Assembly (NCBI RefSeq): GCF_013205025.1
Contig: NZ_JABMLE010000001.1
Coordinates: 992,001-1,056,000, forward strand
Origin: Rathayibacter sp. VKM Ac-2857
Lineage (GTDB): Bacteria; Actinomycetota; Actinomycetes; Actinomycetales; Microbacteriaceae
Length of the DNA: 64,000 nucleotides
Reading direction: 5' to 3'
Shown here: in pieces, positions 17,709-61,529 of the stretch
Numbering within the stretch: the stretch's first letter is position 1
How the letters are laid out: each line of letters opens with the position of its first letter
The notes under the pieces: model-generated
What the model was told of the DNA's origin: nothing
What the model saw: only the letters and a program-made list of their open reading frames with translations
Databases searched by the model: none
Position numbers and translations under genes: made by a program

Positions 17709-17905
17709 CATGCTGGTCGACCAGCCCCGCAGGGGCGTCTCTCATGCTGGTCGAGCAGCCCCGCAGGGGCGTCTTCCATGCTGGTCGAGTAGCCCCGCAG
17801 GGGCGTATCGAGACCCGCCGTCACCAGCAGGGCGGGTCTGCAGACTCGTCCTTCTGACTGCGTGGATCTCGATACGCCCGCTCCGCGGGCTACTCGATCA
17901 GCATG
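17709..17905. repeat. REP-like array 1 (four units)
   Basis: Three plus-oriented units start at 17709, 17743 and 17777, and one inverted unit spans 17864-17905. Each has the form CATGCTGGTCGAGTAG followed by a short hairpin and GTATCGAGA. The plus units have stem CCCC/GGGG around a GCA loop, and the inverted unit has CCCGC/GCGGG around GGA. The first two units are truncated after the hairpin and have a CAG instead of a TAG foot. The rest of 17569-17956 shows nothing else. Confidence 0.85.
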
Positions 17906-17956
17906 GGACATCCCCTCGTTCACGGTGACTCCGCGAAGGAGACCGAAGCCGGCGGA

Positions 17957-19402
17957 TCAGTAGTCGGGCTCGCGCGGGCGCCGCGGACGGTCGGAGTCGA
18001 TCCCGTCGGACTGCTGCATCGCCTGGTCGATCAGGGCCTGCCGCATCGGATCCGGGAACTCGTCGTCCAGTTCGTCGGGCTCGACCGGGCGGCGCGGACG
18101 CGGTGCCGGCTCGACGACAGGCGCCTCCGGGACATCGCCCTGCGGGCGCTCGTCGGACGCCTCCTCCGCCATCGCCGCCTCGACGAGGGCGAAGTCCTCC
18201 TCCGCCATCGCGCTGCGGGTGGCCGCCTTCGGCCGGTGCCGCCGGCGCGAGAGAAACAGCCCGATGCTCTCCGACCGCGACGCCAGGATCGGGCCGACGA
18301 TCGCCATGATCAGGACGTAGAGGCCGGCGAACGGCTGGATCCGCTCGTCGAGCCCCGCCGAGAGCGAGAGCGTCGCGAGGATCAGCGCGAACTCGCCGCG
18401 GTTGTGCAGGATGAACGCCGCATTCAGCCCGGCGCGCGGTCCGAGCTTGTTCAGCCAGGCGACGAACTGCCCGGCGCCGAGGTTGAGCACGATCGTCATC
18501 ACGGCGGCGGCGATCACCGGCAGCACCACGTCGGGGAACGCACCGGGGTCGAGGCCGAGGCCGAAGTTGACGAAGAAGAAGGCGCCGAACACGTCGCGCA
18601 GCGGGATCGCGATCCGCTCGACCCGCGCGCGGAACCGGGTGGCACCGATCACCAGACCGATCAGGAACGCGCCGATCGCGTCGGTCACGCCGAGCACCTC
18701 GCCGATCCCGCCGAAGAGGATCGCGAGACCGAAGAAGAGGATCGTGAACAGCTCGTCGTCCCGGGTGCGGAAGAACCGCGAGACCACCCGGCCACCCCAG
18801 CGCGCGATCGCGAACATCACCACCAGGAACGCGAACGCGATGACCAGCTTGAGCACGACCGGCCACGGCTCCGTCTCGCCGGAGAGCACGACCGACACGA
18901 TCGCCAGGTAGACCGCGATGAAGATGTCCTCGACCACTGTCACGCCGAGGATCATCGGCGTCTCCGGGTTGGCGAGGCGCTTGAGCTCGATCAGCAGCTT
19001 CGTCACGATCGCGCTCGAGCTCGTCGCCGTGATGCCCGCGATGATCAGCGCCTCGCGGCTGCCCCAGCCCAGCACGAAGCCGAAGGCGAGCCCGGCCGCC
19101 ATGTTGACGGCGATGTAGGAGCCGCCGGAGAGGATCAGCCGCCCCGCGTTGCCGTAGAACTCGTCCTGGTCGAACTCCAGGCCGAGGTTGAACAGCAGCA
19201 GGATCAGCCCGAAGACCGCCGTCAGCTCGATGTAGGACGACTCGAAGTCGAGCGGGAAGAGGTGGAAGTTCGGGCTCGCGAGCAAACCGACGACCATGTA
19301 GATCGGGATGGCCGGGAGGCCGATCGTGCGCCCCAGCCGCCCGAGGACGTAGGCGACGACGAACAGGATGCCGAGGACGATGAGGTCTTCGCCGTGGTGC
19401 AT
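17957..19402 (-). CDS. cation:proton antiporter, KhtU/KefB-like (CPA2)
   Basis: The 481-residue protein has about 12 membrane helices with CPA2 hallmarks: AIPIYMVVGLLASPNF, ATSSSAIVTKLLIEL (helix-break region), VTVVEDIFIAVYLAIVSVVL (the Glu-Asp ion-binding pair) and FFVNFGLGLDPG. The C-terminal 90 residues are a hydrophilic Pro/Glu/Asp-rich tail without a TrkA-N domain. It is preceded, 2 nt apart, by a TrkA-C protein, so the pair matches the KhtT-KhtU potassium/proton antiporter of Bacillus subtilis. In that system KhtT gates KhtU by nucleotide and pH. Substrate K+ is inference. Confidence 0.85.
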   Translation of the reverse strand: MHHGEDLIVLGILFVVAYVLGRLGRTIGLPAIPIYMVVGLLASPNFHLFPLDFESSYIELTAVFGLILLLFNLGLEFDQDEFYGNAGRLILSGGSYIAVNMAAGLAFGFVLGWGSREALIIAGITATSSSAIVTKLLIELKRLANPETPMILGVTVVEDIFIAVYLAIVSVVLSGETEPWPVVLKLVIAFAFLVVMFAIARWGGRVVSRFFRTRDDELFTILFFGLAILFGGIGEVLGVTDAIGAFLIGLVIGATRFRARVERIAIPLRDVFGAFFFVNFGLGLDPGAFPDVVLPVIAAAVMTIVLNLGAGQFVAWLNKLGPRAGLNAAFILHNRGEFALILATLSLSAGLDERIQPFAGLYVLIMAIVGPILASRSESIGLFLSRRRHRPKAATRSAMAEEDFALVEAAMAEEASDERPQGDVPEAPVVEPAPRPRRPVEPDELDDEFPDPMRQALIDQAMQQSDGIDSDRPRRPREPDY

Positions 19403-19404
19403 CC

Positions 19405-19923
19405 TCAGACTCCGGGCGGCGTCTCGGGAGCCTTGGCGAAGACGCCGGAGCGGAAGAAGGCGAAGGCCTTGGCGACCTTCTCGGGGCTGCCGGCGACGAC
19501 GAGAGTGTCGCCCGGGAACACCCGGAAGTCGGGGGCGGGCGCGGGGTTGGCCGCATCGCCGCGGACGACGGCCACGACCGTCAGGCCGACGATGCCGCGG
19601 TCGGCGGGCTTGCCGAGCTGCTGGCCCGCGATGTGGTCGTCGTAGTCGACGGTGAACCAGTCGATCGAGAGCCCGGGGATCTGATCGAGCGCGGTGAGCG
19701 ACTCGGTGATCTGGGTGCCGCCGAGCAGCTCGGCGAGGGTGTGCGCCTCGTCGTCGCTGAGGCGGAGCGAGACCTTCGCGCCGTCCTGGTCGCCCTCGGC
19801 GAAGGTGATCAGGTCGCTGTGACCCGAGCGGTGCGCGATGACGCCGACCTTGCCGCCGTCGGCGGTCAGGAAGGTGTGCAGGACACCGACTCCGGGCAGC
19901 TTGACCCTGCGGACCTCGACCAT
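19405..19923 (-). CDS. TrkA-C domain regulatory subunit, KhtT-like
   Basis: The 172-residue cytosolic protein has an N-terminal 80-residue domain and a C-terminal TrkA-C (RCK_C) domain (GLTVVAVVRGD ... FPGDTLVVAGSPEKVAKAFAFF). This is the architecture of KhtT, which binds c-di-AMP or another nucleotide and controls the partner antiporter. The stop is 2 nt before the antiporter start, so the two are translationally coupled. If c-di-AMP is the ligand here, the module would be part of osmotic or potassium homeostasis. Confidence 0.82.
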   Translation of the reverse strand: MVEVRRVKLPGVGVLHTFLTADGGKVGVIAHRSGHSDLITFAEGDQDGAKVSLRLSDDEAHTLAELLGGTQITESLTALDQIPGLSIDWFTVDYDDHIAGQQLGKPADRGIVGLTVVAVVRGDAANPAPAPDFRVFPGDTLVVAGSPEKVAKAFAFFRSGVFAKAPETPPGV

Positions 19924-20058
19924 GCGTGCTCCATCCGCGCCTCGCAGCGCTCCGACCTCGGGATTCCTCCCAGTTTAGGCGGCCCCCGCCCACCCCCGTC
20001 CGCCGTTCGCCCACGGAGGACCCGGCGGCCGGTCACCGCCGCCGAGGCGTCCTCCAAC

Positions 20059-20094
20059 GGTCGAGACGTCCAGCCACAGCAGGACGCCTCGACC
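20059..20094. repeat. 36-bp palindromic repeat, copy A
   Basis: GGTCGAGACGTCC (20059-20071) and GGACGCCTCGACC (20082-20094) pair with one mismatch around a 10-nt loop. A trailing GGGACGCCTCG follows at about 20100. A second copy with the same geometry is at 21099-21134. Confidence 0.8.
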
Positions 20095-20192
20095 GCAGCG
20101 GGACGCCTCGCTGTCCACAGGGCGTCGCGCGCCGTCCACAGGTCGGGGGAGGGGTCGGCCGACGAGAGCCCTCGAGGTGGGAGGGTTCCGGG

Positions 20193-21167
20193 ATGACACG
20201 GGTGGAGCTGTTCCGGGGCGGGGCCTGCGGGAGGTCGGCGGAGTTCGTCCGCCTCCGTCGCGGGGTGCACGTGCGCGCGGCGGAGTGGGCGAGCGCCTCC
20301 GTCGACGCGCGCCACCGCGCCCGCATCGACGCGGTCGCCGCGACGTGGGGCCGTCCCGTCTTCGTCCGTGAGTCCGCCGCCGCTGTCTGGGGCCTCCCCC
20401 TGGTCGAGCCGCTCGACGAGACCGTGCACGTCGCCGCGTCGCCGGCGGTCGGCGGCCGATCGCGCAACCGCGTCGCGGAGCACCGAGGCGCGGCCTCCGA
20501 TTCAGCGCTGGTCGTCGACGGGCTGACGGTCTCCGATCTCGCGCAGACCGTGCTCGACCTCTGCCGCTTCTCGTCCTTCCGGCGCGCCGTCACCGCGGCG
20601 GACCACGCCCTACGGATGCGCGGCAGCCACGGCGAGCACCTTCTCGAGCTGGAGGAGCTGAGGGAGCGCCTCGCCGTCCTTCCCGGTGGGGCCCGCGGCC
20701 GTGCGGCGGCGGCGCGGGTGATCGACTTCGCCGACGAGCGCGCCGAGTCGCCGCTGGAATCGATCAGCCGGGTCGCGATGCATCAGGCGGGGCTCCCCCG
20801 CCCTGTCCTCCAGCGGCCCTTCCACGACGACGAGGGCCTGATCGGCCCGGTCGACTTCTTCTTCGAGGACGCCGACGTCATCGGCGAGGCCGATGGGGCA
20901 CACAAGTACACGGACCCGCGGTTCCTCCGCGGGCGCAGCCCCGAGCAGGCGCTGCTGGACGAGAAGCGACGGGAGGACCGCCTCCGCGCTCTCGTCAGCG
21001 GCGTCGTCCGCTGGCGCTGGCAGGACGCTTACGCCGCGCGCCCGATGCTCGCCGCCCTTGCGCACGCCGGAGTCCGCCCCACCGAGACGGCCTCGAACGG
21101 TCGAAGCGTCCAGCTGCTGCAGGACGTCTCGACCGTTCGGGGACGCCTCGGACGGTCGGACGGCTAG
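20193..21167 (+). CDS. Vsr/DUF559-like endonuclease-fold protein with AbiEi-type N terminus
   Basis: The 324-aa protein is typical of a large Microbacteriaceae group. The N-terminal half (RVELFRGGACGRSAEFVRLR ... RPVFVRESAAAVWGLPL) resembles the AbiEi antitoxin/winged-helix type. The C-terminal part looks like a PD-(D/E)XK fold: ESPLESISRVAMHQAGL, GPVDFFFEDADVIGEADGAHKYT and a final RVxRWRWQDA-like strand. Enzyme activity and partner are unknown, and no toxin gene is adjacent. ATG 20193 follows GGGAGGG. The last 25 or so codons lie inside repeat copy B, so the original stop was probably replaced. Confidence 0.7.
   Translation: MTRVELFRGGACGRSAEFVRLRRGVHVRAAEWASASVDARHRARIDAVAATWGRPVFVRESAAAVWGLPLVEPLDETVHVAASPAVGGRSRNRVAEHRGAASDSALVVDGLTVSDLAQTVLDLCRFSSFRRAVTAADHALRMRGSHGEHLLELEELRERLAVLPGGARGRAAAARVIDFADERAESPLESISRVAMHQAGLPRPVLQRPFHDDEGLIGPVDFFFEDADVIGEADGAHKYTDPRFLRGRSPEQALLDEKRREDRLRALVSGVVRWRWQDAYAARPMLAALAHAGVRPTETASNGRSVQLLQDVSTVRGRLGRSDG
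21099..21134. repeat. 36-bp palindromic repeat, copy B (inside coding sequence)
   Basis: Arms 21099-21111 and 21122-21134 (two mismatches) with a 10-nt loop, and again a trailing GGGACGCCTCG. It encodes the C-terminal tail of the preceding gene (SNGRSVQLLQDVSTVRGRLG). Confidence 0.8.
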
Positions 21168-22282
21168 CTGGGCTGGTACGGGGCGACGACGACCTCGACG
21201 CGCTGGAACTCCTTGAGGTCGGAGTAGCCGGTGGTCGCCATCGAGCGGCGCAGGGCGCCGATCAGGTTGGCGGTGCCGTTCGCGTCGGTCGCCGGGCCGT
21301 AGAGGACCTGCTCGAGCGTGCCGACGGTGCCGACCTGGACGCGGCGGCCGCGCGGGAGCTGCTGGTGGTGCGCCTCGGCGCCCCAGTGCCAGCCGCCGCC
21401 GGGAGCGTCGGTCGCGCGGGCGAGCGCGGAGCCGAGCATCACGGCGTCCGCGCCGACCGCGACGGCCTTCACGATGTCGCCGGAGGTGCCGAGGCCGCCG
21501 TCCGCGATCACGTGCACGTAGCGTCCGCCGGACTCGTCGAGGTAGTCGCGGCGAGCGCCGGCGACGTCGGCGACCGCGGTGGCCATCGGCGCCTGGATGC
21601 CCAGCGTCGCGCGGGTGGTCGAGGCGGCGCCGCCGCCGAAGCCGACGAGGACGCCCGCGGCGCCCGTGCGCATCAGGTGCAGGGCGGCCGTGTACGTCGA
21701 GGCCCCGCCGACGATGACCGGCACGTCGAGCTCGTAGATGAACTTCTTCAGGTTGAGCGGCTCGGTGTCCCGCGAGACGTGCTCCGCGGACACCGTCGTC
21801 CCGCGGATGACGAAGACGTCGACCCCCGCGTCGACGACCGTCTGGTACAGCTCGGCGGTGCGCTGCGGCGACAGCGCGCCCGCGACCGTGACGCCGGCCG
21901 CGCGGATCTCCGCGAGCCGCGCCGTCACCAGCTCCGGCTTCACCGGCTCCGAGTAGATCTCCTGCATGCGCTGCGTCGCGCGCTCCGCCGGCAGCTCCCG
22001 GATCTCCGCGAGCAGCGGCTCCGGGTCCTCGTAGCGCGTCCACAGCCCCTCGAGGTCGAGGACGCCCAGCGCCCCCAGCCGGCCCAGCGTGATCGCCGTC
22101 GCCGGCGAGACCACCGAGTCCATCGGCGCCGCGAGGATCGGAGTCGCGAACTGGTACGCGTCGATCGACCACTTCACCGACACCACCTCCGGATCGCGGG
22201 TCCGGCGGCTCGGGACCACCGCGATGTCGTCGAAGGCGTACGCGCGGCGAGCGCGCTTGGCGCGCCCGATCTCGATCTCCAT
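21164..22282 (-). CDS. GuaB3 family IMP dehydrogenase-related protein
   Basis: The 372-residue TIM-barrel protein of the IMPDH/GMP-reductase superfamily lacks the CBS domains of true GuaB. It has the barrel motifs FDDIAVVPSRRT, ATPILAAPMDSVVSP, VPVIVGGASTYTAALHLM, VIADGGLGTSGDIVKAVAVGADAVMLGS and the C-terminal GLRQ-like region replaced by ANLIGALRRSMATTGYSDL. At the catalytic loop, GuaB's GSICTTR is here GAASTTR, so the nucleophilic Cys is a Ser. Either the protein is not a conventional dehydrogenase or it is regulatory. The gene lies downstream of guaB on the same strand but has its own leaderless promoter. Confidence 0.9.
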   Translation of the reverse strand: MEIEIGRAKRARRAYAFDDIAVVPSRRTRDPEVVSVKWSIDAYQFATPILAAPMDSVVSPATAITLGRLGALGVLDLEGLWTRYEDPEPLLAEIRELPAERATQRMQEIYSEPVKPELVTARLAEIRAAGVTVAGALSPQRTAELYQTVVDAGVDVFVIRGTTVSAEHVSRDTEPLNLKKFIYELDVPVIVGGASTYTAALHLMRTGAAGVLVGFGGGAASTTRATLGIQAPMATAVADVAGARRDYLDESGGRYVHVIADGGLGTSGDIVKAVAVGADAVMLGSALARATDAPGGGWHWGAEAHHQQLPRGRRVQVGTVGTLEQVLYGPATDANGTANLIGALRRSMATTGYSDLKEFQRVEVVVAPYQPS

Positions 22283-22289
22283 ATGGCCG

Positions 22290-22295
22290 AGTTTA
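22290..22295 (-). promoter_or_regulatory. -10 element of guaB3
   Basis: TAAACT on the minus strand, 7 nt before the ATG at 22282. Confidence 0.55.
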
Positions 22296-22475
22296 CTGTG
22301 GCTCCATCCTCGCTCCGCGCCTCGCTCCGCTCAGCACTCCGCTCGTCTATCGCCCGCAGTCGGCTCGAGCAGGTGGTCGCGTCCCACAGAGCGTCCTCCG
22401 TCCGCGCACGCCGATCCGCTGGCACGCGGATCGCCGGATAGCGCTCCCTCCCTGCTGCCGCACGTGCCTGGCTGG

Positions 22476-22555
22476 GCAGTCGCGGCGGGCGCAGCCCGCT
22501 CGCGCTGCCGCCAGCAGGCGCAGTCGCGGCGGCGCGCCAGCGCCGCTCGCGCTGC
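22476..22555. repeat. two tandem 33-36-bp hairpins
   Basis: The first (22476-22508) is GCAGTCGCG-GCGGGC-GCA-GCCCGC-TCGCGCTGC. The second (22520-22555) keeps the same outer arms but has GCGGCGC/GCGCCGC as the inner stem. The inner stems differ but both pair, again with compensatory changes. The pair lies in the 430-bp gap between guaB3 and guaB. Confidence 0.75.
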
Positions 22556-22596
22556 GACTCTCGGTCTCCCCCAGGTCCGCGTGCCCCGAGTGGGAG

Positions 22597-22686
22597 GCGT
22601 CGGGTCGTGAGGGCGGCCCCTCCGGCGTGGTGGGCGTATGGGCCGAAGGCCCATCGGGCAGAGGGGCCGCCCTCACGACCCGACGC
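22597..22686. repeat. 90-bp element with perfect 25-bp inverted repeats
   Basis: Arms 22597-22621 and 22662-22686 are perfect 25-nt inverted repeats. The 40-nt loop holds another hairpin, ATGGGCC-GAA-GGCCCAT (22638-22654). It starts 27 nt behind the guaB stop and may terminate guaB, but it is far longer than a normal terminator. Confidence 0.85.
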
Positions 22687-22713
22687 CGACCCCCACCCAG
22701 AGACGCAGCAGAA

Positions 22714-24225
<1,512 letters not shown>

Positions 24226-24413
24226 TTATGAGGTCGAGCGGGTGGCCCGGAGGTGGAGGTGGCGCATCCGGTCACGGGTGTCCCGGATGCTCAATCTTAA
24301 GCGCGCGGACGCGCCCGGTATTCCTGCCCGGCCGCCCCTCGGATCTGCACCGGATGTGCATCGGACGCGCTCGCGACCCTTGCGGGGGACACGGGAGCGC
24401 TCTCCGCCCCGCA

Positions 24414-24419
24414 TAATGT
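24414..24419 (+). promoter_or_regulatory. candidate -10 element of the liv operon
   Basis: TAATGT in the 413-bp gap between guaB and livH, without a clear -35. It would give a leader of about 200 nt. Apart from this, the guaB promoter box and the palindrome at 24473-24492, the gap shows nothing recognisable. Confidence 0.35.
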
Positions 24420-24472
24420 CGTCACGCAGTAGTGCAGGTGGGGAAACACCGCCGACACATGCGGAACGTATG

Positions 24473-24492
24473 GTCAACCAACGTTGTTTGAC
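24473..24492. promoter_or_regulatory. 20-bp palindrome, candidate operator of livHMGF
   Basis: GTCAA-CC-AACGTT-GT-TTGAC is palindromic at 18 of 20 positions and lies about 50 nt after the candidate -10 box, where a repressor would block the liv transcript. Its AT-rich centre stands out from the surrounding GC-rich DNA. The binding regulator is not known. Confidence 0.45.
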
Positions 24493-24629
24493 GACGGCGA
24501 TCCGGGCGTGCCCGAGGACCCCATCCGTCTGTGCACCCTGACGAGAGGTAGACGTCTTGCTCACAGCCAGCCGTTCGACGCGCCACAAGCGCGCGACGAC
24601 CCTGCATCCGACGGACCGGGAGGCCCCCC

Positions 24630-26060
24630 GTGCCTAGGAGGCTCCCCACACTGCGCACGCTCCGCGACGGCATCGTCGCGCTCGGTCTGCTCGCCGCGAC
24701 CCTGACCGGGGTCGCCGCCGCCGCGCCCGCCGCGACGGCCGAGACCACGGCCGACCAGTCGATCATCGCCTGGGTCCGCGTGCAGGGCACGAACGAGAAC
24801 CTCGTGGGCGTGACCGTCGAGCTCGGCGGCGACGCCACCGCGACCCTCACCACGGGCGACGACGGCCGCGCCGTCTTCCCGCTCGAGGAGGCCGGCACGT
24901 TCAGCGTGACGGTCGACGAGGAGACGCTGCCCGCCGACAAGGGCTACCCCGCAGCGGGGCAGAACCCGAAGCAGGTGACGATCGTCTCCTCGCAGAACCA
25001 GATCGTGAACTTCATCGTCTCGACCGCGAACCCGATCGGCACGGGCGCGAGCGCTCCGGTGCCGACCGACTCCGCCGCCCCGACGAGCCCCGCCACCGAG
25101 GGCACCACGGGCAACGACGCGACGAACCCCGACGGGACCTCGAACGCGGTGAACCAGCCGGTCTCCGCCGACACCTTCTGGATCATCTTCTGGCCCAAGG
25201 TCGTCACCGGCCTGATCTTCGGACTGCTGATCGCCCTCGCGGCGATCGGCGCCTCGCTGATCTACGGCGTCACCGGGCTGAACAACTTCGCCCACGGCGA
25301 GCTGGTGACCTTCGGCGCGCTGATGGCCTACCTCTTCTCCGGCGTCTTCGGTCTGCCGGCGCTGCTCGCCATCCCCATCGCGGTGGTCCTCGGCGGGGCG
25401 TTCGGCTTCGCGCAGGACGGTCTGCTCTGGAAGCCGCTGCGCAAGAAGAACATCCAGCTGATCCCGCTGATGATCGTGACCATCGGCCTGTCGCTCGCGC
25501 TGCGCTACACGTTCGTCTTCTTCTTCGGCGCGGACCGCCTTTCGCTGCCCAACAGCACGGCGCCGTTCTTCACGGTCCCGGCGCTCGGCATCAGCCTGAA
25601 GTTCACCGACCTGGTCGGCGCGGCCGTCGGCATCGTCTGCATCGTCGGCGTGGCCCTGCTGCTCACGAAGACCAAGATCGGCAAGGCGATGCGCGCGGTG
25701 TCCGACAACCGGGCCCTCGCCTCCGCCTCCGGCATCAACGTCGAGCGCGTCATCCGCGTGGTCTGGGTGCTTTCCGGAGCCCTCGCCGCGCTGGCCGGCG
25801 TCTACATCGGCTACTACCAGTCGCTGCGCTGGGACACCGGAGCGTCGATCCTGCTGCTCATCTTCGCGGCGATCACGCTCGGCGGACTCGGCTCCGCCTA
25901 CGGAGCGCTGGTCGGCTCGCTCATCATCGGCCTGATGATGAACATCTCGACGATCTGGATCCCGGAGAACCTCAAGTACGTGGCTCCGCTGGTCCTGATG
26001 ATCGTCATCCTGCTGGTCAGACCGCAGGGCATCCTCGGTCGCAAGGAACGGATCGGCTGA
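24630..26060 (+). CDS. livH: branched-chain amino-acid ABC transporter permease with secreted N-terminal domain
   Basis: The C-terminal part (from about residue 185) is a normal LivH permease, with GASLIYGVTGLNNFAHGELVTFGAL, the EAA-like loop KAMRAVSDNRALASASGINVERV and the end PQGILGRKERIG. In front of it are about 180 extra residues: a signal peptide (RDGIVALGLLAATLTGVAAA), a beta-rich domain of about 95 residues resembling carboxypeptidase-regulatory/SpaA-like folds (VGVTVELGGDATATLTT), and a Ser/Thr/Pro/Asn linker. The GTG at 24630 has GGGAGG at 7 nt. Normal LivH is about 300 aa; this one is 476. First gene of livHMGF. Confidence 0.92.
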   Translation: MPRRLPTLRTLRDGIVALGLLAATLTGVAAAAPAATAETTADQSIIAWVRVQGTNENLVGVTVELGGDATATLTTGDDGRAVFPLEEAGTFSVTVDEETLPADKGYPAAGQNPKQVTIVSSQNQIVNFIVSTANPIGTGASAPVPTDSAAPTSPATEGTTGNDATNPDGTSNAVNQPVSADTFWIIFWPKVVTGLIFGLLIALAAIGASLIYGVTGLNNFAHGELVTFGALMAYLFSGVFGLPALLAIPIAVVLGGAFGFAQDGLLWKPLRKKNIQLIPLMIVTIGLSLALRYTFVFFFGADRLSLPNSTAPFFTVPALGISLKFTDLVGAAVGIVCIVGVALLLTKTKIGKAMRAVSDNRALASASGINVERVIRVVWVLSGALAALAGVYIGYYQSLRWDTGASILLLIFAAITLGGLGSAYGALVGSLIIGLMMNISTIWIPENLKYVAPLVLMIVILLVRPQGILGRKERIG

Positions 26061-26064
26061 CACC

Positions 26065-30271: not shown

Positions 30272-30307
30272 CGTCGAGCGCGCGTCCCCTCGGGGGCGCG
30301 CGCTCGA
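30272..30307 (+). terminator. terminator of the 67-aa gene
   Basis: A stem formed by GTCGAGCGCGCG and CGCGCGCTCGAC, continued by CCCC/GGGG around a TCGG loop, starting 15 nt after the stop. Confidence 0.75.
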
Positions 30308-30348
30308 CGCGTCGTACGGCGATTCCTCCTCGACCGACGCCCCTCCGG

Positions 30349-30596
30349 CCATGCTGGTCGAGTAGCCGCGCAGCGGCGTATCGAGACCCACCGTCCCCAG
30401 CACGGCAGGTCTGCCGATCCGACTTCTGACGGTGGTGGATCTCGATACGCCCTCTGCGAGGGCTACTCGATCAGCATGAGTCGAGCGGCCCCATCATGCT
30501 GGTCGAGTAGCCGCGCAGCGGCGTATCGAGACCCACCCGTCGGTCCTGCAGCACCGAGCGCCGCGTCCATGCCGGTCAGCAGCCGCGCAACGGCCT
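30349..30596. repeat. REP-like array 2 (four units)
   Basis: Units: plus at 30349-30388 (stem CCGC/GCGG, loop GCA), minus at 30436-30477 (stem CCCTC/GAGGG, loop GCA), plus at 30494-30533 (CCGC/GCGG, GCA), and a decayed plus unit from 30568 (CAG foot, mismatch in the stem). The array fills the gap between the convergent small gene and livK; nothing else is seen in 30308-30608. Confidence 0.85.
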
Positions 30597-30608: not shown

Positions 30609-30640
30609 GAAGGGGCCCGGTCGGATGACCGGGCCCCTTC
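30609..30640 (-). terminator. terminator of livK
   Basis: A perfect 14-bp stem, GAAGGGGCCCGGTC / GACCGGGCCCCTTC, around a GGAT loop, 31 nt behind the livK stop and followed by TCGTCG on the minus strand. Confidence 0.9.
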
Positions 30641-30671
30641 GCGCGTCACGGCCGGAGCCGCGAGCGGAGTG

Positions 30672-38640: not shown

Positions 38641-38871
38641 CTGCTGGTCGAGCAGCCGTGCACCACCCTGCTGACACGGGGGATCTCGATACGCCCTCTC
38701 CGAGGGCTACTCGATCAGCATGCGGACCATGCTGGTCGAGTAGCCGCGCAGCGGCGTATCGAGACCCACCCACCGGACGACGGTGGATCTCGATACGCCC
38801 TCTCCGAGGGCTGCTCGATCAGCAGGCGGACCATGCTGGTCGAGTAGCCGCGCAGCGGCGTATCGAGACCC
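38641..38871. repeat. REP-like array 3 (five units)
   Basis: A truncated plus unit from 38641 (GCAG foot) is followed by a minus unit 38681-38722 (stem CCCTC/GAGGG, loop GGA), plus 38728-38767 (CCGC/GCGG, GCA), minus 38785-38824 (CCCTC/GAGGG, GGA) and plus 38832-38871 (CCGC/GCGG, GCA). It separates tsaE from tsaB, genes that act together and are often joined. Nothing else is seen in 38594-38887. Confidence 0.85.
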
Positions 38872-43781: not shown

Positions 43782-44064
43782 GGGTCTCGATACGCGCCTC
43801 CGGCGCTACTCGACCAGCATGGAAGGCGCAGACCTGCACCCGGTGCGCGGCGCAAGCATGTTGATCGAGTAGCCCGCACAGCGGGCGTATCGAGATCCGC
43901 CGTCCTGACGACGGCGGGTCTCGAGACGCGCCTCCGGCGCTACTCGACCAGCATGGGGCGGGCAGGCTGCGCCATGCCGTGCCTCCGGCCCCGGTCGACT
44001 CGCGCACAGCGCGCGGCGGAAGCATGCTGATCGAGTAGCCCGCGCAGCGGGCGTATCGAGATCC
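43782..44064. repeat. REP-like array 4 (four units)
   Basis: Minus units 43782-43821 and 43916-43955 (stem GCGCC/GGCGC, loop GGA) alternate with plus units 43857-43898 (CCCGC/GCGGG, loop ACA, the only exception to GNA) and 44023-44064 (CCCGC/GCGGG, GCA). The array fills the 340-bp gap between the convergent coaA and glmM. Confidence 0.85.
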
Positions 44065-53127: not shown

Positions 53128-53166
53128 CCCGACCCGCTCCGGCCCGATCCGCACCGGGAACGGCGG

Positions 53167-53206
53167 AGGGGCGGGGCCGGATGCCGGAGCACCCGATCCC
53201 GCCCCT
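53167..53206. terminator. bidirectional terminator between lepB and mtlD
   Basis: AGGGGCGGG (53167-53175) pairs with CCCGCCCCT (53198-53206), between two convergent genes. Confidence 0.7.
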
Positions 53207-53227
53207 TCGGACGGAGACTCGCGAGGG

Positions 53228-54367: not shown

Positions 54368-54801
54368 CAGGAGTTGACCTCGCCCAGCAGCGCGTAGAGC
54401 GCCTGCGCGTCGGGGGCGTCGAGGAGCTTCTGCACCTCGTCCTCCTCGGAGAAGATGATCGCGATCTTGGAGAGGATCTCGAGGTGCTCGTTGTTCACTC
54501 CGGCGATGCCGACGACGAAGCGGACCTCGTTGCCGTCCCAGTCGATCGGCTGCGCGTAGCGGACGAAGGACAGCGCCGACGATCGGATCTCGTCCTTCGC
54601 GTCGTTCGTGCCGTGCGGGATGGCGAGCAGGTTGCCCATGTAGGTGGAGACGGTCGCCTCGCGGGCGAGCATCGCCTCGTGGTAGGCGGGCGTGACGGCG
54701 CCGACGCCGACCAGCATGTCGGCGGCCTCCTTGATGGCGGTCTCCTTCGACGTGGCGGTGCCGGAGGCGTTGATCTGTCCGATGGTGAGCACATCGCTCA
54801 T
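54367..54801 (-). CDS. PTS mannitol transporter subunit IIA
   Basis: 144 residues, IIA-Mtl type, with the phosphorylatable His in [19 protein letters not shown] (about residue 65). It accepts phosphate from HPr and passes it to the IIB domain of the membrane protein upstream. I start at ATG 54801 behind AAAGGA. In E. coli this domain is fused to MtlA; here it is separate, as in many Gram-positives (MtlF). Confidence 0.95.
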
Positions 54802-54833
54802 GGCGTGCGTCCTTTCCGTGGGTGGTGAACGAA

Positions 54834-54895
54834 TGAGGGAACCCGCAGGGGCGAGCGGAGCGTCTCCGCCACGTCGCACCCTACGGGTTCCCTCA
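54834..54895 (-). terminator. hairpin between mtlA and the IIA gene
   Basis: TGAGGGAACCCG (54834-54845) pairs perfectly with CGGGTTCCCTCA (54884-54895), and the inner CAGGG/CCCTA lengthens the stem. It lies 14 nt behind the EIICB stop and 33 nt ahead of the IIA start, inside the operon, so it may attenuate downstream genes or stabilise the EIICB message. Confidence 0.75.
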
Positions 54896-54908
54896 GGGGT
54901 GTTCCCGA

Positions 54909-56486
54909 CTACTTGCCGTGCTGCTCCGCGACGAGCGAGACGACCTCGTCGTACTTGGGGCTGTTCATGAAGTTGTCGACGGAGACGTGGATCGCGCCCG
55001 GCGTGCGCTGGCGCGCCCGCTCGGTCAGCTCGGCCTGGGTGATGACCAGGTCGACGTCGTCCTCGAGGGCCGCGATCGCCTTGTTGGTGACCGTGACGTC
55101 CTCGAAGCCCGCCTTCTTCATCTTGTTGCGCAGGACGGAGGCGCCCATGGCGGACGATCCCATTCCGGCGTCGCAGGCGAAGACGATGTTGCGCACCTGC
55201 GTGGCGGTGGCGGTCGCCGAGGCGCCGTCCTGGTTCGACGCGCCGCTCGCGTTGAGGAGCGAGCCGACGGCGCTCTCCTTGCCCTTGTTCGACGAGTTGG
55301 CGGCGACGGCGGCGGCGAGCTTGTCGTCACCGGCCTCCATGGCGTCGAGGTCGCGCTTGCGGCTGCCGCGGATGATGAACGACGCGACGACGAACGACAC
55401 GGCCATCGAGAGCAGGACCGAGAGGATCACGCCGAGGTAGCTGTCGCGCGAGGTCTGCAGGAGCACCGCGATGATCGATCCCGGGGACGCCGGGGCGACG
55501 AGACCGGAGTCGAACGCGACGTTGGTCGCGACGCCGGTCATGCCGCCGAGGATGACGGCCGCGACGAGCGCGGGCTTCATCAGCACGTAGGGGAAGTAGA
55601 TCTCGTGGATGCCGCCGACGAAGTGGATCAGCGCGGCGCCGGGAGCGGAGCCGCGGGCGATGCCCACACCGAAGATCGCGAAGGCGAGCAGCACGCCCAT
55701 GCCGGGGCCGGGGTTGGCCTCGAGCAGGAACAGGTACGACTTGCCCTGCTCCTGCGCCATGACGGTGCCGAGCGGGGTGAGGACGCCCTGGTTGATGGCG
55801 TTGTTGAGGAACAGGATCTTCGCCGGCTCGATGAAGATCGAGGTCAGCGGCAGCAGGCCCGCGTTCACCAGGAGGTCGACGCCGTCGCCGAGGATCTTGG
55901 TGAGGAACGAGATGATCGGGGCGATTCCGAAGAACGCGCCGAGCGAGAGCAGCATGCCGAGGATTCCGGCGGAGAAGTTGTTGACCAGCATCTCGAAGCC
56001 GGGCTTGATCTTGCCGTCCCAGATCGAGTCGACCTTCTTCATCAGCCACGCGGCCAGCGGGCCGATGATCATGGCGCCGAGGAACATCGGGATGGTGGCG
56101 CCGACGATGACGCCCATGGTGGCGATCGAGGCGACCACGCCACCGCGCTGGCCGTAGACCATGCGGCCACCGGTGTTCGCGATGAGCAGCGGCAGCAGGT
56201 AGGTGATCATCGGGGCGACGAGACCGACGTACTGCTGGAAGGTCGCGCCGTCCTCACCGGCGGCGAGCTGGGTGCGGGCACCCTCCCAGCCGATCTGGGC
56301 CGCGTCGCCGAAGCCGCCGAGGATGCCGTTGGGCAGCCAGCCCGCGGCGATGAAGAGCGAGGTGATGAGACCCCACGCGATGAAGGCCGCGATGTTCGGC
56401 ATGACCATCCCCGAGAGGAAGGTGCCGAATCGCTGGACGTGGACGCGCGTACCTCCGCGCGTCGACGTCGCTGACGTCGTTGTCAT
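54909..56486 (-). CDS. mtlA: PTS mannitol transporter subunit IICB
   Basis: The membrane permease/phosphotransferase, 525 aa from ATG 56486. The IIC domain has about eight helices with GTFLSGMVMPNIAAFIAWGL and the substrate-binding GGIHEIYFPYVLMKP. A Ser/Asn/Ala linker (KGKESAVGSLLNASGASNQD) then leads to the IIB domain with the phosphocysteine in VFACDAGMGSSAMG. It lacks the fused IIA domain of E. coli MtlA; that is the separate gene behind the hairpin. Confidence 0.96.
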   Translation of the reverse strand: MTTTSATSTRGGTRVHVQRFGTFLSGMVMPNIAAFIAWGLITSLFIAAGWLPNGILGGFGDAAQIGWEGARTQLAAGEDGATFQQYVGLVAPMITYLLPLLIANTGGRMVYGQRGGVVASIATMGVIVGATIPMFLGAMIIGPLAAWLMKKVDSIWDGKIKPGFEMLVNNFSAGILGMLLSLGAFFGIAPIISFLTKILGDGVDLLVNAGLLPLTSIFIEPAKILFLNNAINQGVLTPLGTVMAQEQGKSYLFLLEANPGPGMGVLLAFAIFGVGIARGSAPGAALIHFVGGIHEIYFPYVLMKPALVAAVILGGMTGVATNVAFDSGLVAPASPGSIIAVLLQTSRDSYLGVILSVLLSMAVSFVVASFIIRGSRKRDLDAMEAGDDKLAAAVAANSSNKGKESAVGSLLNASGASNQDGASATATATQVRNIVFACDAGMGSSAMGASVLRNKMKKAGFEDVTVTNKAIAALEDDVDLVITQAELTERARQRTPGAIHVSVDNFMNSPKYDEVVSLVAEQHGK

Positions 56487-56638
56487 GTGGTGTGTTCTCC
56501 GATTCTGAGGGTGGGAGATCCGGTCGCTCCTGAGGCGGGCCGGGCTCCCGCGGGGCGGGACGAGACGGGGTGGTGCAGGGGTGGTGCGGGGTGGTGCTGC
56601 GGAGGATCGTGCGCATGCGGGCCGCGCGATCCCCGGGA

Positions 56639-58330
56639 TCAGGAGGCGGCGATCGCCTCGGTGACGGCGGACCGGGCGTCCGCCGCGCTGTCGGCCGCGA
56701 GGGCGAGCTCGGCGTAGCGCTTCGCGTCCTCGAGGGTGTGCTCGGCCAGCTCGGCGCGGACGTCGGCCAGAGCCGACGGCGACATCGAGAGGGTCGTCGC
56801 GCCGAGGCCCACGAGGACCACGGCGAGCAGCGGATCCGCGGCGGCCTCGCCGCAGATGCCGACGGGCTTGCCCAGTGCGGCGCCCGCGCGGCCTACCTCG
56901 CCGACGAGGCGGAGGACGGCGGGGTGCCACGGGTCCTGGAACGCCGACACGGTGCCGAGCATCCGGTCGGCGGCGAGGGTGTACTGGGTCAGGTCGTTGG
57001 TGCCGATGGAGGCGAAGTCGGCGACTCCGAGGATCCGGTCGGCGAGCAGGGCGGAGGAGGGGACCTCCACCATCACGCCGGCGGTGCGGATCCCGAGCTC
57101 CTTGGCCATGGAGGTGAAGTAGCGGGTCTCGTCGACCGTCGCGACCATCGGCGCCATGACCCAGAGGTCGGCATCGGTCGCGGAGTCGGCCTGGGCGAGC
57201 GCGGTGAGCTGGTCGCGGAGGATCTGCTCGCTCGCGCGCAGGGCGCGGAGACCGCGGAGGCCGAGCGCCGGGTTCTCCTCGTGGTTGTCGTTCAGGAAGG
57301 CGAGCGGCTTGTCGGCGCCGGCGTCGAGCGCCCGCACCACGACCTTGCGGCCGGGGAAGGCGGCGAGGAGACGGGTGTACTGCTCGGCCTGCTCGGCGAC
57401 CGAGGGCGCCTCCTTCGCGTCGAGGAAGAGGAACTCGGTGCGGAACAGGCCCACGCCCTCCGCGCCGAGCTCGACGGCGTTCGCGGCGCCGTCGGCGGAG
57501 CCGAGGTTCGCCAGCAGCGGCACGGCGTGACCGTCGGCGAGGGCGCCGGGAACGACGGGGGCGGCGAGCATCTCGGCGCGCTCCGCGATCGAGGACTTCG
57601 CGTCGCCGATCTCGACGTCGGACGGGTTCACCGTCACGACGCCGGAGGAGGCGTCGAGGATGACGAGCTGGCCGTCGCGCAGGTCGAGCGCGCCGGTGGT
57701 GCCGACGATGGCGGTGATCGACTTCTCGCGGGCGAGGATCGCCGTGTGCGAGGTCGGGCCGCCGTCGCTCGTGATCAGGCCGAGGACCTTCTCGAGGTCG
57801 AGCAGCGCGGTGTCGGCCGGGGCGAGGTCGCGGGCGACGAGCACGAAGGGCTCGTCCGACTCCGGGACGCCGGGCGCCGGGACGCCGCGCAGGTGCGCCA
57901 CGACCCGCTGCGAGACGTCGTCCAGGTCGGTCGCCCGCTCGGCCATGTAGCCGCCCATCGCGACCAGCAGGTCGCGGAAGCCGGCGAACGCCTCGTGCAC
58001 CGCGCGCTCAGCGGTCTTGCCGGTCGCGAGCCGCGCCTTCACGTCGTCCGCGAGCGAGGGGTCCTCCGCCATCAGCGCCTGCGCGTCGAGCACGTCCTTC
58101 GCCGAGCCGCCGGCGCGCTCACCGCGGTGGCGGATGGTCGCGGCGGTCGCCGACAGCGAGGCGACGGCGCGCTCCTCCTCCTGGGCGACGGAGCGGGTGC
58201 TGGCGGTGTCCTCGGGCTCGGGGAGCGGATCGGGCATGCGCAGGACCGGCCCGAGGGCCAGGCCGCGGCCGACACCGGTGCCCTGGAGCTTCGCGGAGGC
58301 GTAGGCGGTCGAAGGAGTGGACAGCGTCAT
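56639..58330 (-). CDS. ptsI: phosphoenolpyruvate--protein phosphotransferase (PTS enzyme I)
   Basis: The general PTS enzyme that takes phosphate from PEP to HPr. The 563-aa sequence has the active-site His in DGGPTSHTAILAREKSITAI, PEP-binding GVGLFRTEFLFLD, MVEVPSSALLADRI and the C-terminal CGEAAADPLLAVVLVGLG. General PTS genes inside a sugar operon suggest that mannitol may be the main PTS sugar of this organism. Confidence 0.96.
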   Translation of the reverse strand: MTLSTPSTAYASAKLQGTGVGRGLALGPVLRMPDPLPEPEDTASTRSVAQEEERAVASLSATAATIRHRGERAGGSAKDVLDAQALMAEDPSLADDVKARLATGKTAERAVHEAFAGFRDLLVAMGGYMAERATDLDDVSQRVVAHLRGVPAPGVPESDEPFVLVARDLAPADTALLDLEKVLGLITSDGGPTSHTAILAREKSITAIVGTTGALDLRDGQLVILDASSGVVTVNPSDVEIGDAKSSIAERAEMLAAPVVPGALADGHAVPLLANLGSADGAANAVELGAEGVGLFRTEFLFLDAKEAPSVAEQAEQYTRLLAAFPGRKVVVRALDAGADKPLAFLNDNHEENPALGLRGLRALRASEQILRDQLTALAQADSATDADLWVMAPMVATVDETRYFTSMAKELGIRTAGVMVEVPSSALLADRILGVADFASIGTNDLTQYTLAADRMLGTVSAFQDPWHPAVLRLVGEVGRAGAALGKPVGICGEAAADPLLAVVLVGLGATTLSMSPSALADVRAELAEHTLEDAKRYAELALAADSAADARSAVTEAIAAS

Positions 58331-58387
58331 GAGATCTCGGTTCCTGTGTGCGTCTCGGCGGTGAGAGGGCGGTGGGGGCGAGGGGTC

Positions 58388-58654
58388 TTAGGCGTCGTGG
58401 TCGGTGCTGAGGAACTCCGCGAGCTCGTCGAGGATCGCCTGCTCGTTGTCGCCCTCGACCGAGAGGGTCAGCGAGTCGCCGTGCTCGATGCCGAGCGAAA
58501 TGATCCCGAGGATCGAGGCCGCGTTCACTGCGGTGCCCTCGCCCTTCTTCACGAGGACCTTCTGACCCGACTTCGCCGCGGCCTGGCTGAAGAGCGAGGC
58601 GGGGCGGGCGTGGAGGCCCTTCGACGATGCAACCTGCACGGTGCGCTCGACCAT
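58388..58654 (-). CDS. ptsH: phosphocarrier protein HPr
   Basis: 88 residues with the active-site His15 in SSKGLHARPASLFSQAA and the regulatory-type Ser in VNAASILGIISLGIEHGD, which corresponds to Ser46. No HPr kinase is seen in the window. ptsH is followed by ptsI in the same operon. Confidence 0.96.
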   Translation of the reverse strand: MVERTVQVASSKGLHARPASLFSQAAAKSGQKVLVKKGEGTAVNAASILGIISLGIEHGDSLTLSVEGDNEQAILDELAEFLSTDHDA

Positions 58655-58689
58655 GAACGTTTCTCCTTGATCCTGCAGTCGGAACTGCG

Positions 58690-59073
58690 TCAGTGGTTCC
58701 CGGCGCCGGGCGCGAGGCCCGGGGCGGGAGGTGGGGCGTCCCCGTCCGATCCTGCGACGACCGCGCGAGCGGCGAAGAGGACGGGCAGGGTGTCGAGCAC
58801 GGCATCGGCACCGTGCGCCCCGAAGACGTCGTGCGGGAGGAGGGCTGCCGCGGCGCCGACGTGCACCGCGCGCTGGCGGAGCTCGTCGAACTGCGGCTCG
58901 AGGTGCGGCCCGACCAGGAGGACGTCCGCCTGGGGCAGAGCGTCCGCGAGACCGGGAAGGGTCTCGGATCGGAACACGGCATCGATGCCGCGCTGCTTCG
59001 CGCCCGCTCGCAGCCGGTGGGCCAGGAACGTGCTCGACGCGCCTGCACCGCAGACGATCAGGATCGTGCGCAC
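58690..59073 (-). CDS. PTS IIB-like protein (lactose/cellobiose type)
   Basis: The 127-residue protein opens VRTILIVCGAGASSTFLAHR with the phosphocysteine loop VCGAGASSTF of PTS IIB proteins. The remaining beta/alpha part (ADVLLVGPHLEPQFDELRQR) fits the IIB fold. There is no matching IIC in the window, so it may be a regulator or an additional phosphate acceptor rather than a transporter part. GTG 59073 follows GAGGAGG. It is the first gene of the operon. Confidence 0.8.
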   Translation of the reverse strand: MRTILIVCGAGASSTFLAHRLRAGAKQRGIDAVFRSETLPGLADALPQADVLLVGPHLEPQFDELRQRAVHVGAAAALLPHDVFGAHGADAVLDTLPVLFAARAVVAGSDGDAPPPAPGLAPGAGNH

Positions 59074-59135
59074 CTCGTTCGCCTCCTCGCGTCCGGGTCT
59101 TGCCTCATCCAAGCATCTCGGCGGCTGTGCGTCCG

Positions 59136-59168
59136 CCCCCCGCAGACAATCTTCCGCGGGGGCGGAAG
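59136..59168. promoter_or_regulatory. candidate operator between mtlR and the PTS operon
   Basis: CTTCCGC-GGGG-GCGGAAG (59151-59168) is a perfect 7-bp inverted repeat, and CCCCCGC (59137-59143) repeats the other half. It lies in the divergent region between the IIB-like gene and mtlR, where MtlR or a catabolite regulator would act. Confidence 0.5.
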
Positions 59169-59234
59169 AGCGCTCCCGGCGGCTTCGGCGCGGGTCCGAC
59201 CCCGCCGACCCGGAGATGGTTGACTGGAAGACCG

Positions 59235-61154
59235 ATGCCTGACAACCGCGAACGACTGCTGGAGTACCTCTCCCGCGCAGACGGCTGGGTGACCGCGCAC
59301 GAGCTGGCCGACCGGCTCGGGGTCACCACCCGGAGCGTCCGCAGCTACGTGACGGCGGTGAAGGCCCAGGCGGCTCCGCTCGAGCCCGTGGAGTCGTCGG
59401 CCAACGGCTACCGGCTCGCCCGCGACGCGTACACGGCGTTCCTCGAGACCCGGCTGCTCCGCGACGTCGAGCCGGACACCCCGCGCGACCGGCTGTACAG
59501 CATCGTCCGGCGCCTCGTCGACTCCGACGACGGGCTCGACGTCGCCGCGCTCGCCGAGACGCTCTCCGTCAGCGAGTCGACGATCGACGCCGATCTGCGC
59601 CGGGTGAAGGCGCTGGCGGACGAGGCCGGCCTGGCGCTCGTGCGCCGCGGCCCGGCGGTGCGGCTCGAGGGCAGCGAGGAGGCGCGGCGCCGGCTGATCT
59701 CGCGGATGTTCCGCGACGAGAGCGCGCAGGGCGTCTTCACGCTCGACGACGTGCAGCGCGAGTTCGCCTCCCCCGGCCTCGGCGCGTTCAAGACCGAGCT
59801 GCTCGCCGAGCTCGAGACCCGCGGCTACTACATCAACGACTACGGCGTGAACAGCGTGCTGCTGCACATCGCGATCGCCGTAGACCGCGTCTCGCGGGGC
59901 ATCGGCGACCCGTCCGGCTCGCGCCCCTCCCCCGCCGTCCACGGCGAGCTCGCCGCGCTGCTCGCCGAGCTCGTCGAGCGCCACTTCGCCACGCGCCTCA
60001 CCGACGCGGAGCTGGCTCAGCTGGCGATCCTGATGACCACGCGGGTGGCGACGCCGGGGCAGAACGAGCCGGTCGCGACCGTCGTCGAGAACTACCTCGA
60101 CCCCGAGGACGTCGCGGTGGTCCGCGAGCTCGTCGCCGACGTGAACGACGCCTACCTGGTCGATCTGGACGACGAGGGCTTCATCGTCCGCCTCGCGCTG
60201 CACGTGCGGAACCTCGTCGCGCGGGCGGCGGAGGGCGGCTACTCGCGGAACCCGCTCACGCGCTCGATCAAGACCAGCTTCCCGATGACCTACGAGATCG
60301 CGGTGTTCCTCGCGAGCGGGCTGCAGCGGCTCCGCGGCATCACGGTCAACGAGGACGAGATCGCGTACATCGCCCTGCACGTCGGCTCGTTCCTCGAGCG
60401 GGTGTCCCGGCGCGAGGAGCGGCTCTCCTGCGTCATCGTCTGCCCGAACTACTACGACCTCGCGCACATGCTGCGGCTCCGGGTCGAGCGCTCGCTCGGC
60501 ACCGAGGTGGAGGTCCGCTCGCTGATCACGCGGAGCGACGTCGACTGGGACCGCCTCACTGCGGACCTGGTGATCACGACGATCGACGAGCGGCCCGCGT
60601 CCGAGGACGTCGTCGTGGTGCAGCCGTTCCTCACCGACCACGACGTGGACGCCGTTCGCCGCGCGATCGCGCGCGTGCGCCGGCACCGCCGCCGCGCGCG
60701 GATCAAGGACGAGCTGCTGCAGTTCTTCGACGAGTCGCTCTTCTTCCGCAACGTGCACGCCCGGGACGAACCGGCGATGATCCGGCTTCTCGGCGAGCGG
60801 ATGATCGCCGGCGGCATCATCGACGACGACTACGTCGACGGGGCGATCGAGCGCGAGCGGATGAGCTCCACCGCGTTCACCGACAACCTCGCCGTCCCGC
60901 ACGCCATGGCGATGAGCGCGCGCCGGACCGCGATCGCCATCGTCGTCAACGACGTGCCGATGGCCTGGGGCGAGCAGCGCGTGAACGTGATCGCGATGAT
61001 CGCCTTCGCCTCGGCCGGGCGCAGCAGCTTCCAGTCCGTCTTTGACCAGTTCGTCGAGGTCTTCGCGGACCGCGCCGAGGTGCAGCGCCTGATCCGCCGC
61101 TCCACGGACTTCGGCGGCTTCATCGAGGAGCTCGTCCGCGTCATCGACAGCTGA
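59235..61154 (+). CDS. mtlR: mannitol operon transcriptional activator MtlR (BglG/PRD family)
   Basis: The 639-aa protein has two N-terminal winged-helix domains (WVTAHELADRLGVTTRSVRS; LAETLSVSESTIDADLRRVK), two PTS-regulation domains (conserved His in DYGVNSVLLHIAIAVDRVSR and in EDEIAYIALHVGSFLERV), an EIIB-Gat-like domain (EERLSCVIVCPNYYDLAHML) and a C-terminal EIIA-Mtl-like domain with the His in DNLAVPHAMAMSA. Phosphorylation by the PTS should switch it on or off. It is divergent from the PTS operon it probably controls. Confidence 0.94.
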   Translation: MPDNRERLLEYLSRADGWVTAHELADRLGVTTRSVRSYVTAVKAQAAPLEPVESSANGYRLARDAYTAFLETRLLRDVEPDTPRDRLYSIVRRLVDSDDGLDVAALAETLSVSESTIDADLRRVKALADEAGLALVRRGPAVRLEGSEEARRRLISRMFRDESAQGVFTLDDVQREFASPGLGAFKTELLAELETRGYYINDYGVNSVLLHIAIAVDRVSRGIGDPSGSRPSPAVHGELAALLAELVERHFATRLTDAELAQLAILMTTRVATPGQNEPVATVVENYLDPEDVAVVRELVADVNDAYLVDLDDEGFIVRLALHVRNLVARAAEGGYSRNPLTRSIKTSFPMTYEIAVFLASGLQRLRGITVNEDEIAYIALHVGSFLERVSRREERLSCVIVCPNYYDLAHMLRLRVERSLGTEVEVRSLITRSDVDWDRLTADLVITTIDERPASEDVVVVQPFLTDHDVDAVRRAIARVRRHRRRARIKDELLQFFDESLFFRNVHARDEPAMIRLLGERMIAGGIIDDDYVDGAIERERMSSTAFTDNLAVPHAMAMSARRTAIAIVVNDVPMAWGEQRVNVIAMIAFASAGRSSFQSVFDQFVEVFADRAEVQRLIRRSTDFGGFIEELVRVIDS

Positions 61155-61157
61155 CGC

Positions 61158-61529
61158 GGGTCTCGATACGCCGCTCCGCGGCTACTCGACCAGCATGGAG
61201 CGGCCGCGCTGCCCGTGAGCAGCGCACTCCCGCGCCCATGCTGACCAGCCCGCGCGCCCATGCTGATCGAGTAGCCCGCGCAGCGGGCGTATCGAGATCC
61301 CGCACCGTCAGACGTCGAGTCTGCAGTCCCGCCCTGCTGACGACGGCGGGTCTCGATACGCCCCTGCGGGGCTACTCGACCAGCATGGAGCGGCCGCGCC
61401 GCCCGTGAGCAGCGCACTCCCGCGCCCATGCTGATCAGCCCGCGCGCCCATGTTGATCGAGTAGCCCGCGCAGCGGGCGTATCGAGATCCGCCACCGCCA
61501 GAACGCCGGGTCTCGATGCGCCCCTGCAC
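61158..61529. repeat. REP-like array 5 with 190-bp tandem duplication
   Basis: Minus unit 61158-61197 (stem CCGC/GCGG, loop GGA), plus 61259-61300 (CCCGC/GCGGG, GCA), minus 61348-61387 (CCCC/GGGG, GCA), plus 61449-61490 (CCCGC/GCGGG, GCA) and a truncated minus unit 61509-61529. The block 61185-61300 recurs at 61375-61490 with about four mismatches. The array lies between mtlR and the PLP-enzyme gene; nothing else is visible in 61155-61533. Confidence 0.85.

Follow-up and report, generated by a model that had tools for sequence, protein, structure and literature searches.

What are the short GTAG-containing hairpins that recur between genes in Rathayibacter sp. VKM Ac-2857, and which enzyme, if any, has moved them? 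The 64,000-nucleotide stretch analyzed here (contig NZ_JABMLE010000001.1, positions 992,001 to 1,056,000; the window) holds five arrays of such hairpins, and the original prediction, made from the letters alone, was that they are repetitive extragenic palindromic (REP)-like elements recognized by a REP-associated tyrosine transposase (RAYT). Our results reveal that the repeat family is real and that its fold is larger than the one first described; no RAYT model match over cut-off was obtained in any carrier searched, and what can safely be said is that this is a REP-like population with no detectable RAYT. The reading that we favor, tentatively and at a little short of an even chance, is that of a non-autonomous REP-like hairpin family that would move as a folded single strand by means of an enzyme other than a recognizable RAYT.

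The fold consists of two covarying helices, one outer and one inner, joined by an invariant junction. The outer helix is of about 4 bp, mostly GRTY with RAYC; the junction is asymmetric (5' GAGTA, 3' GTATCGA); and the inner helix is free in sequence, with a small loop. GTAG had been taken for a foot beside a short hairpin, but because its last G is paired with the C preceding GTATC, in 228 of 232 copies, it is not free and lies within a longer hairpin. A tolerant search of the first 1.2 Mb of contig C1 gave 262 copies, in which the R of CTGRTCGA tracks the Y of GAYC (152 G-C, 105 A-T, 3 G-T and 2 others); the G/A variation of CTG(G/A)TCGA is thus matched by C/T in GA(C/T)C, so there is a second, outer helix. 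There are two main subtypes, a G-type with a 12-base core (114 copies) and an A-type with a 14-base core (100 copies), and the R/Y pair alone could reflect one old split of two lineages. When the search fixed none of the eight outer bases and asked only for an inner hairpin of 3 bp or more, outer pairs 1 to 4 were formed in 209, 209, 209 and 218 of 218 copies in the strain's own genome; in other sequence sets T-A also occurs at pair 4 and C-G at pair 1.

Covariation was scored on 65 distinct sequences drawn from the window, named genomes, other genera and IMG/VR, and on two alignments, A3 (12 rows) and A4 (33 rows), the rows of all three being chosen for inner stems of at least 4 bp, such that inner pairing is partly selected and the outer helix is not. 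In the 65 sequences, found again without any constraint on the outer bases, 258 of 260 outer cells are paired; double changes number 19, compared with 2.7 on average and at most 7 in shuffles. Given the structure, all cells are paired in A3 (132/132) and A4 (264/264), and the observed covariation score is reached by none of 500 shuffles in either case. Independently of alignment, inner-stem pairing exceeds that of swapped halves in 7/7 sets, with 4.72 versus 2.99 bp in the own genome and 3.50 versus 1.45 bp in the IMG/VR contigs. With the junction left free, GAGTA was recovered in 179 and GTATCGA in 181 of 189 copies, across 52 distinct inner hairpins. The original observation that stems differ between copies with both sides changing together is borne out, both in exceeding shuffles and at orthologous places, where paired changes occur (e.g. 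CCGCC/GGCGG to CCGCT/AGCGG, and CCCGC/GCGGG to TCCGC/GCGGA). The step from compensatory change to implied selection on the fold goes too far, since pairing in imperfect palindromes can also be restored by template-switch correction. The fixed GNA triloop holds locally, being dominant in the own genome (192/232 copies) and in two relatives, G009 (21/26) and G011 (46/60); in the four remaining sets it does not dominate (12/55, 2/63, 8/37 and 4/7 copies).

The whole 129-base paired unit, folded as DNA, has an energy of -50.2 kcal/mol (z -9.8), and two single copies fold modestly better than shuffles (z -1.4 and -2.2). An outer pairing of TCGA with TCGA, given by the minimum-energy fold, was set aside, the GGTT...AACC and CGTT...AACG variants fitting GGTC/GACC. 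The complement of the C-GNA-G loop of the window arrays is C(UNCG)G, the extra-stable RNA tetraloop, so that a tight loop would be possible on either strand, whether DNA or RNA.

For copy counts we used the exact pattern CATGCTGRTCGAGTAG-N5-25-GTATCGAGA, with the reversed pattern as a control. In the 4.6-Mb genome (8 contigs) there are 434 forward and 431 reverse copies, compared with 0 for the control, and a looser core gives 567 and 569 copies in the two orientations. Within Rathayibacter the exact pattern, which misses variants such as those of G001 so that these counts are for the exact form, is present in 10 of 15 genomes at 1 to 865 copies each. Across the Microbacteriaceae the repeat core was matched in 65 of 249 genomes and 31 of 85 genera, with 39 of the 65 genomes having at least 5 copies and 26 having 1 to 4; the lowest counts may be due to chance, because the reversed control was itself matched three times in all among the 249 genomes. 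In a phylum sample of 396 genomes (at least 90% complete), a slightly stricter core was matched in 5, two of these in another family. A covariance model trained on 33 rows, 8 of them from window copies, matched 7 of 80 named loci (one in Agreia, four in Agromyces, one in Agrococcus and a weak one in Herbiconiux). The plasmid and phage GenBank collections gave no match to one whole unit as query, a test made weak by the variable stems.

The layout is like that of bacterial interspersed mosaic elements (BIMEs) and of REP doublets forming hairpins (REPINs), with G and A subtypes alternating in inverted pairs that have inner gaps near 49 or 19 bases. The inverted pairs originally described are borne out: among 181 close neighbors (less than 250 bases apart), 163 are opposite in orientation and 143 in both orientation and subtype. 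For 78 outward G/A pairs the inner gap is 44-50 bases in 58, 18-20 in 15 and otherwise in 5, whereas back-to-back spacers are diffuse. In tandem gene spaces the subtype order is A-first in 20 and G-first in 11. Two REPINs, at C1:130920 and 532233, are near-identical and have common flanks on both sides, and others share parts of these, which suggests a longer duplicated unit.

The element also occurs in phage-like contigs. In IMG/VR, 61 places in 52 loci have 4 outer and at least 3 inner pairs, out of 151 raw places that include many expected by chance, several loci lying within one contig. Sampled neighbor proteins resemble, by eye, terminase, portal and head-tail proteins. At one phage gene-pair gap the element is present in 4 of 8 related loci and not in the other 4; in the gap after a terminase-like gene it is present in 1 of the 12 loci listed of 15, five of the 11 empty loci being distant relatives. 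Several phage copies (L180, L185, L197 and L211) are embedded in a larger, imperfect palindrome whose arms resemble CCCCAAA...TTTGGGG, as though nested in another repeat.

A broader proposal, which we regard as possible and, on balance, doubtful, is that this is a hairpin family of distant bacteria and phages, the junction of which is read by an undescribed, non-RAYT single-strand enzyme, and which expanded in some Microbacteriaceae, converging there on the BIME layout of Escherichia coli.

Among the alternatives, the one that survives best, unlikely as we consider it, is that of an element selected by the host in place, i.e. a DNA or RNA hairpin at gene ends (a terminator, 3' end protection, or a gyrase or nucleoid site) that recombination has spread and selection maintained. 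The copies are extragenic and favor gene 3' ends. By a simple purpose-written gene caller (1104 genes, 88.9% coding), only 5 of 262 copies lie mostly inside called genes, compared with 90% of random places. The 80 clusters divide into 41 in convergent spaces (119 such spaces), 32 in tandem (406) and 5 in divergent ones (156), the other 2 being flagged as possibly intragenic. This convergent enrichment speaks for a gene-end function, as do the conservation of positions among relatives, described below, and an orientation bias in phage operons. After removal of duplicates, copies inside a reading frame and copies not flanked on both sides by neighbors within 300 bases, the phage set came to 15 tandem and 5 convergent cases; in 13 of the 15 distinct tandem cases GAGTA lies on the strand opposite to the genes (p 0.007, with relatives not independent). 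In the own genome, however, strand bias relative to genes is weak (first element sense in 69 and antisense in 48), no T run follows the hairpins in the five window arrays read, and exact copies drop from 865 to 0 within one genus, so the repeat is not needed by the host.

Mobilization by a canonical RAYT (TnpA-REP), either too diverged for current models or lost after the spread of its REPs and REPINs, appears to us quite improbable. The GTAG-plus-hairpin anatomy, the inverted pairs of two subtypes and the REP-typical extragenic 3' location all fit it; moreover, in the available part of PMC8049555, E. coli strains without a RAYT gene are described as retaining REPINs, in fewer copies, and the part of PMC6006769 available to us describes RAYTs as comprising many diverse subclasses. 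Against it stand the pairing of the last G of GTAG, the extension of conserved sequence outside GTAG, and the searches for the enzyme. Because PF01797 is a weak RAYT detector (15.7 bits for E. coli RayT, compared with 179 bits for the RAYT model NF047646), the latter was used. It was over cut-off in 0 of 249 Microbacteriaceae genomes, high-copy carriers included, and had no match at E<=1 in 12 further genomes, including G007, G009, G478 and G642. Five weak partial matches among the 249, at 14.2-19.5 bits, are taken as chance; the carrier G141 has one of these, of 14.6 bits and within a frame of 1416 codons. PF01797 gave 0 matches in the window's own genome and matched 3 of 249 Microbacteriaceae genomes, all 3 without repeat copies (matches and copies were counted in two 249-genome draws, of the same genomes as far as listed); it matched nothing in 22 phage-like records, all of them fragments. 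A simple scan of reading frames near the phage copies found no HUH motif, and, by eye, no transposase-like gene was seen within the intervals of less than 2.6 kb between clusters (4 in 1.2 Mb). By the yardstick set originally, carriers all without a Y1/RAYT transposase, the RAYT reading fails for the genomes searched, since repeat carriers gave no Y1/RAYT match over cut-off; recognition by a RAYT is thus not supported.

The two genomes over the PF01797 cut-off were considered and rejected, neither being a carrier: in one, an IS605-type element lies next to a TnpB-like gene (L031), and the other has an orphan Y1-like gene adjacent to a lexA-like gene (L032). The orphan protein has no match in the window's genome and 3 weak matches outside its own (120 genomes; 16.9-21.4 bits), one of these in a carrier, G062. 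At L032:1456-1875 (G025), directly downstream of the lexA-like gene, it is a Y1-transposase-like protein of 140 amino acids in which, by eye, the HUH histidines and catalytic tyrosine are replaced; it may be a domesticated DNA-binding relative.

Least probable of all is a neutral by-product without an enzyme of its own, in which hairpins are copied through slippage during replication and through template switching, and quasi-palindrome correction mends their pairing. This would account for arrays that gain and lose copies locally, for deletions terminating within hairpins and for paired changes, since template switching can produce these, but leaves unexplained an invariant junction joined to 52 different inner hairpins, the same junction in phage-like contigs, and the dispersed sites.

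We return to the non-autonomous family moving as a folded single strand. Speaking for it are the copy counts against the control, the covarying outer and inner pairs, the junction constant over 52 inner hairpins, the two gap classes of the outward pairs, the extragenic placement, and the presence or absence of the element at individual sites, one phage gap included. Individual sites differ in occupancy. Among 13 genomes (G010 and G012 being left out of the count), the 38.6-kb site (site A) is occupied in 4, namely G000 (the own genome), G007, G009 and G011, the copies of G007 and G009 being in part degenerate, and the array is absent in 9 (G001-G006, G008, G013 and G014). At site A the sequence of G002 is the same as that of R. 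iranicus, and the window's phosphomannomutase/phosphoglucomutase-like protein is 91% identical to the one of that species, in line with the genus Rathayibacter. At the 43.8-kb site (site B), the sequences examined show an occupied state in G000, G001, G006, G009 and G011, decay in G005 and G013, and no array in G003, G004, G014 and R. iranicus. Where clusters are shared, copy number per cluster differs between relatives.

Several observations weigh against this reading. When the clusters of G000 past 780 kb were compared, 7 not being placeable, 20 of the 24 clusters placeable in both G009 and G011 were present in both, so new jumps are rare; a stricter count gives 20/26 in G009 and 25/28 in G011, and the only cluster absent from both looks spurious, being without a hairpin. 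Where target duplication was sought (five clusters, sites A and B, and two phage gaps), the insertion edges are unclean, and neither a clean target duplication nor a precise insertion edge was found. Two empty-looking states in G009 are deletions ending inside a hairpin; at window 61159-61540 the G009 sequence breaks off halfway through the first hairpin and resumes at the opposite end of the array. In A4 the double-change pair count is reached by 9 of 500 shuffles, and the count of further pair types by 327 of 500. Finally, no mobilizing enzyme for the repeat was found in the genomes searched.

In the favored reading of a mobile single-stranded hairpin, the fold (through covariation), the layout, the extragenic 3' location, the shared sites with changing copy number, the presence or absence at single sites and the lack of RAYT matches are observed; we infer single-strand mobilization, the enzyme and the direction of events. 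As a single strand, each copy folds into the outer helix, the GAGTA/GTATCGA junction and the inner helix with its small loop; a trans-acting protein, probably a single-strand DNA nuclease or transposase that is not a recognizable RAYT, would read the junction on the folded strand; and this protein may have seeded the intergenic copies long ago. Established sites would then have been inherited, with arrays growing and shrinking locally into alternating G/A pairs of the REPIN/BIME type.

In the window itself, searched on both strands with filters off, the covariance model locates the five arrays where they were originally placed, at 17.7, 30.3, 38.6, 43.8 and 61.2 kb, and finds 17 full copies, each with E below 1e-8 (Table 1). 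About 18 had been claimed; an eighteenth match, at 15785, has 17.9 bits and E 0.008 and is probably due to chance. All 17 inner stems are paired by eye and, as originally described, the loop is GCA or GGA in all copies except one. Degenerate copies lie in two of the arrays, on the plus strand at 17709 and 17743, before the first unit, and on the minus strand near 61511-61520, after the last copy. At the Rfam gathering score there were 0 matches in the window and 0 in 12 phage-like loci. The 30.3-kb array is flanked by two strong GC-rich inverted repeats, at 30276-30308 and 30610-30642, which by eye have the look of ordinary terminators.

Table 1. Full repeat copies and paired units in the five arrays of the window (window coordinates)
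Feature	Position	Strand	Details
REPIN-like unit, 129 bp	17777..17905		+ G-type 17777-17815, - A-type 17865-17905; CATGCTG ends outwards
REPIN-like unit, 129 bp	30350..30478		+ G-type (model match 30356-30388), - A-type (30438-30472)
G-type copy, third of 30.3-kb array	30495..30533	+	Model match 30501-30533
A-type copy	38682..38722	-	Model match 38682-38716
REPIN-like unit, 99 bp	38728..38826		+ G-type (38734-38766), - A-type (38786-38820)
G-type copy	38832..38870	+	Model match 38838-38870
G-type copy, stem CGCC/GGCG	43783..43821	-	Model match 43783-43815
REPIN-like unit, 99 bp	43857..43955		+ A-type, ACA loop (43863-43897), - G-type (43917-43949)
A-type copy	44023..44063	+	Model match 44029-44063
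G-type copy	61159..61197	-	Model match 61159-61191
REPIN-like unit, 129 bp	61259..61387		+ A-type (61265-61299), - G-type (61349-61381)
A-type copy	61449..61489	+	Model match 61455-61489

The statement that no named family has this sequence holds for the open-access literature, in which, with subscription papers and figures outside the scope, no like sequence or fold was present among the matches listed; it is qualified by a 2018 paper that mentions an unnamed palindromic repeat in Rathayibacter. The part of that paper available (PMC6113626) describes a repeat of about 75 nucleotides, with 99 copies in R. festucae, 15-50 in other isolates and 19 in R. toxicus. It is likewise palindromic, dispersed and of the same genus, and may be the present family; it is known there by description, without sequence, fold or mechanism, and differs in that R. 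iranicus (G002) has 0 exact-pattern copies here.

With the RAYT-associated GTAG REPs, BIMEs and REPINs of E. coli, Pseudomonas and Stenotrophomonas, as portrayed in the available part of PMC3733652, the family shares an abundance of short extragenic GTAG hairpins, inverted pairs in which two subtypes alternate, and location at gene 3' ends. It differs in that no RAYT was found, in that the last G of GTAG is paired, and in having, outside GTAG, another helix that covaries and, on the 3' side, the invariant half-junction GTATCGA. The CGTC REPs, mainly of alphaproteobacteria, are likewise REP-like without an associated transposase gene according to the same part of that source; they are mostly head-to-head dimers with a different tag and stems of 8-9 bp, and are set apart here by description, not by sequence. 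Miniature inverted-repeat transposable elements of DDE insertion sequences are likewise non-autonomous units of about 100-130 bp with inverted ends, whereas the ends of the present units are themselves hairpins with covarying stems, no target duplication was seen, and single copies occur in phage gaps.

RAYTs are the usual explanation of REPs. Here a very abundant REP/BIME-like population exists without a detectable RAYT, and its two-helix fold is present in phage-like contigs too. The precise consensus allows annotation of these intergenic repeats by others, and it makes testable the questions of which protein reads the junction and of whether REP-like populations can arise, and persist, without a RAYT.

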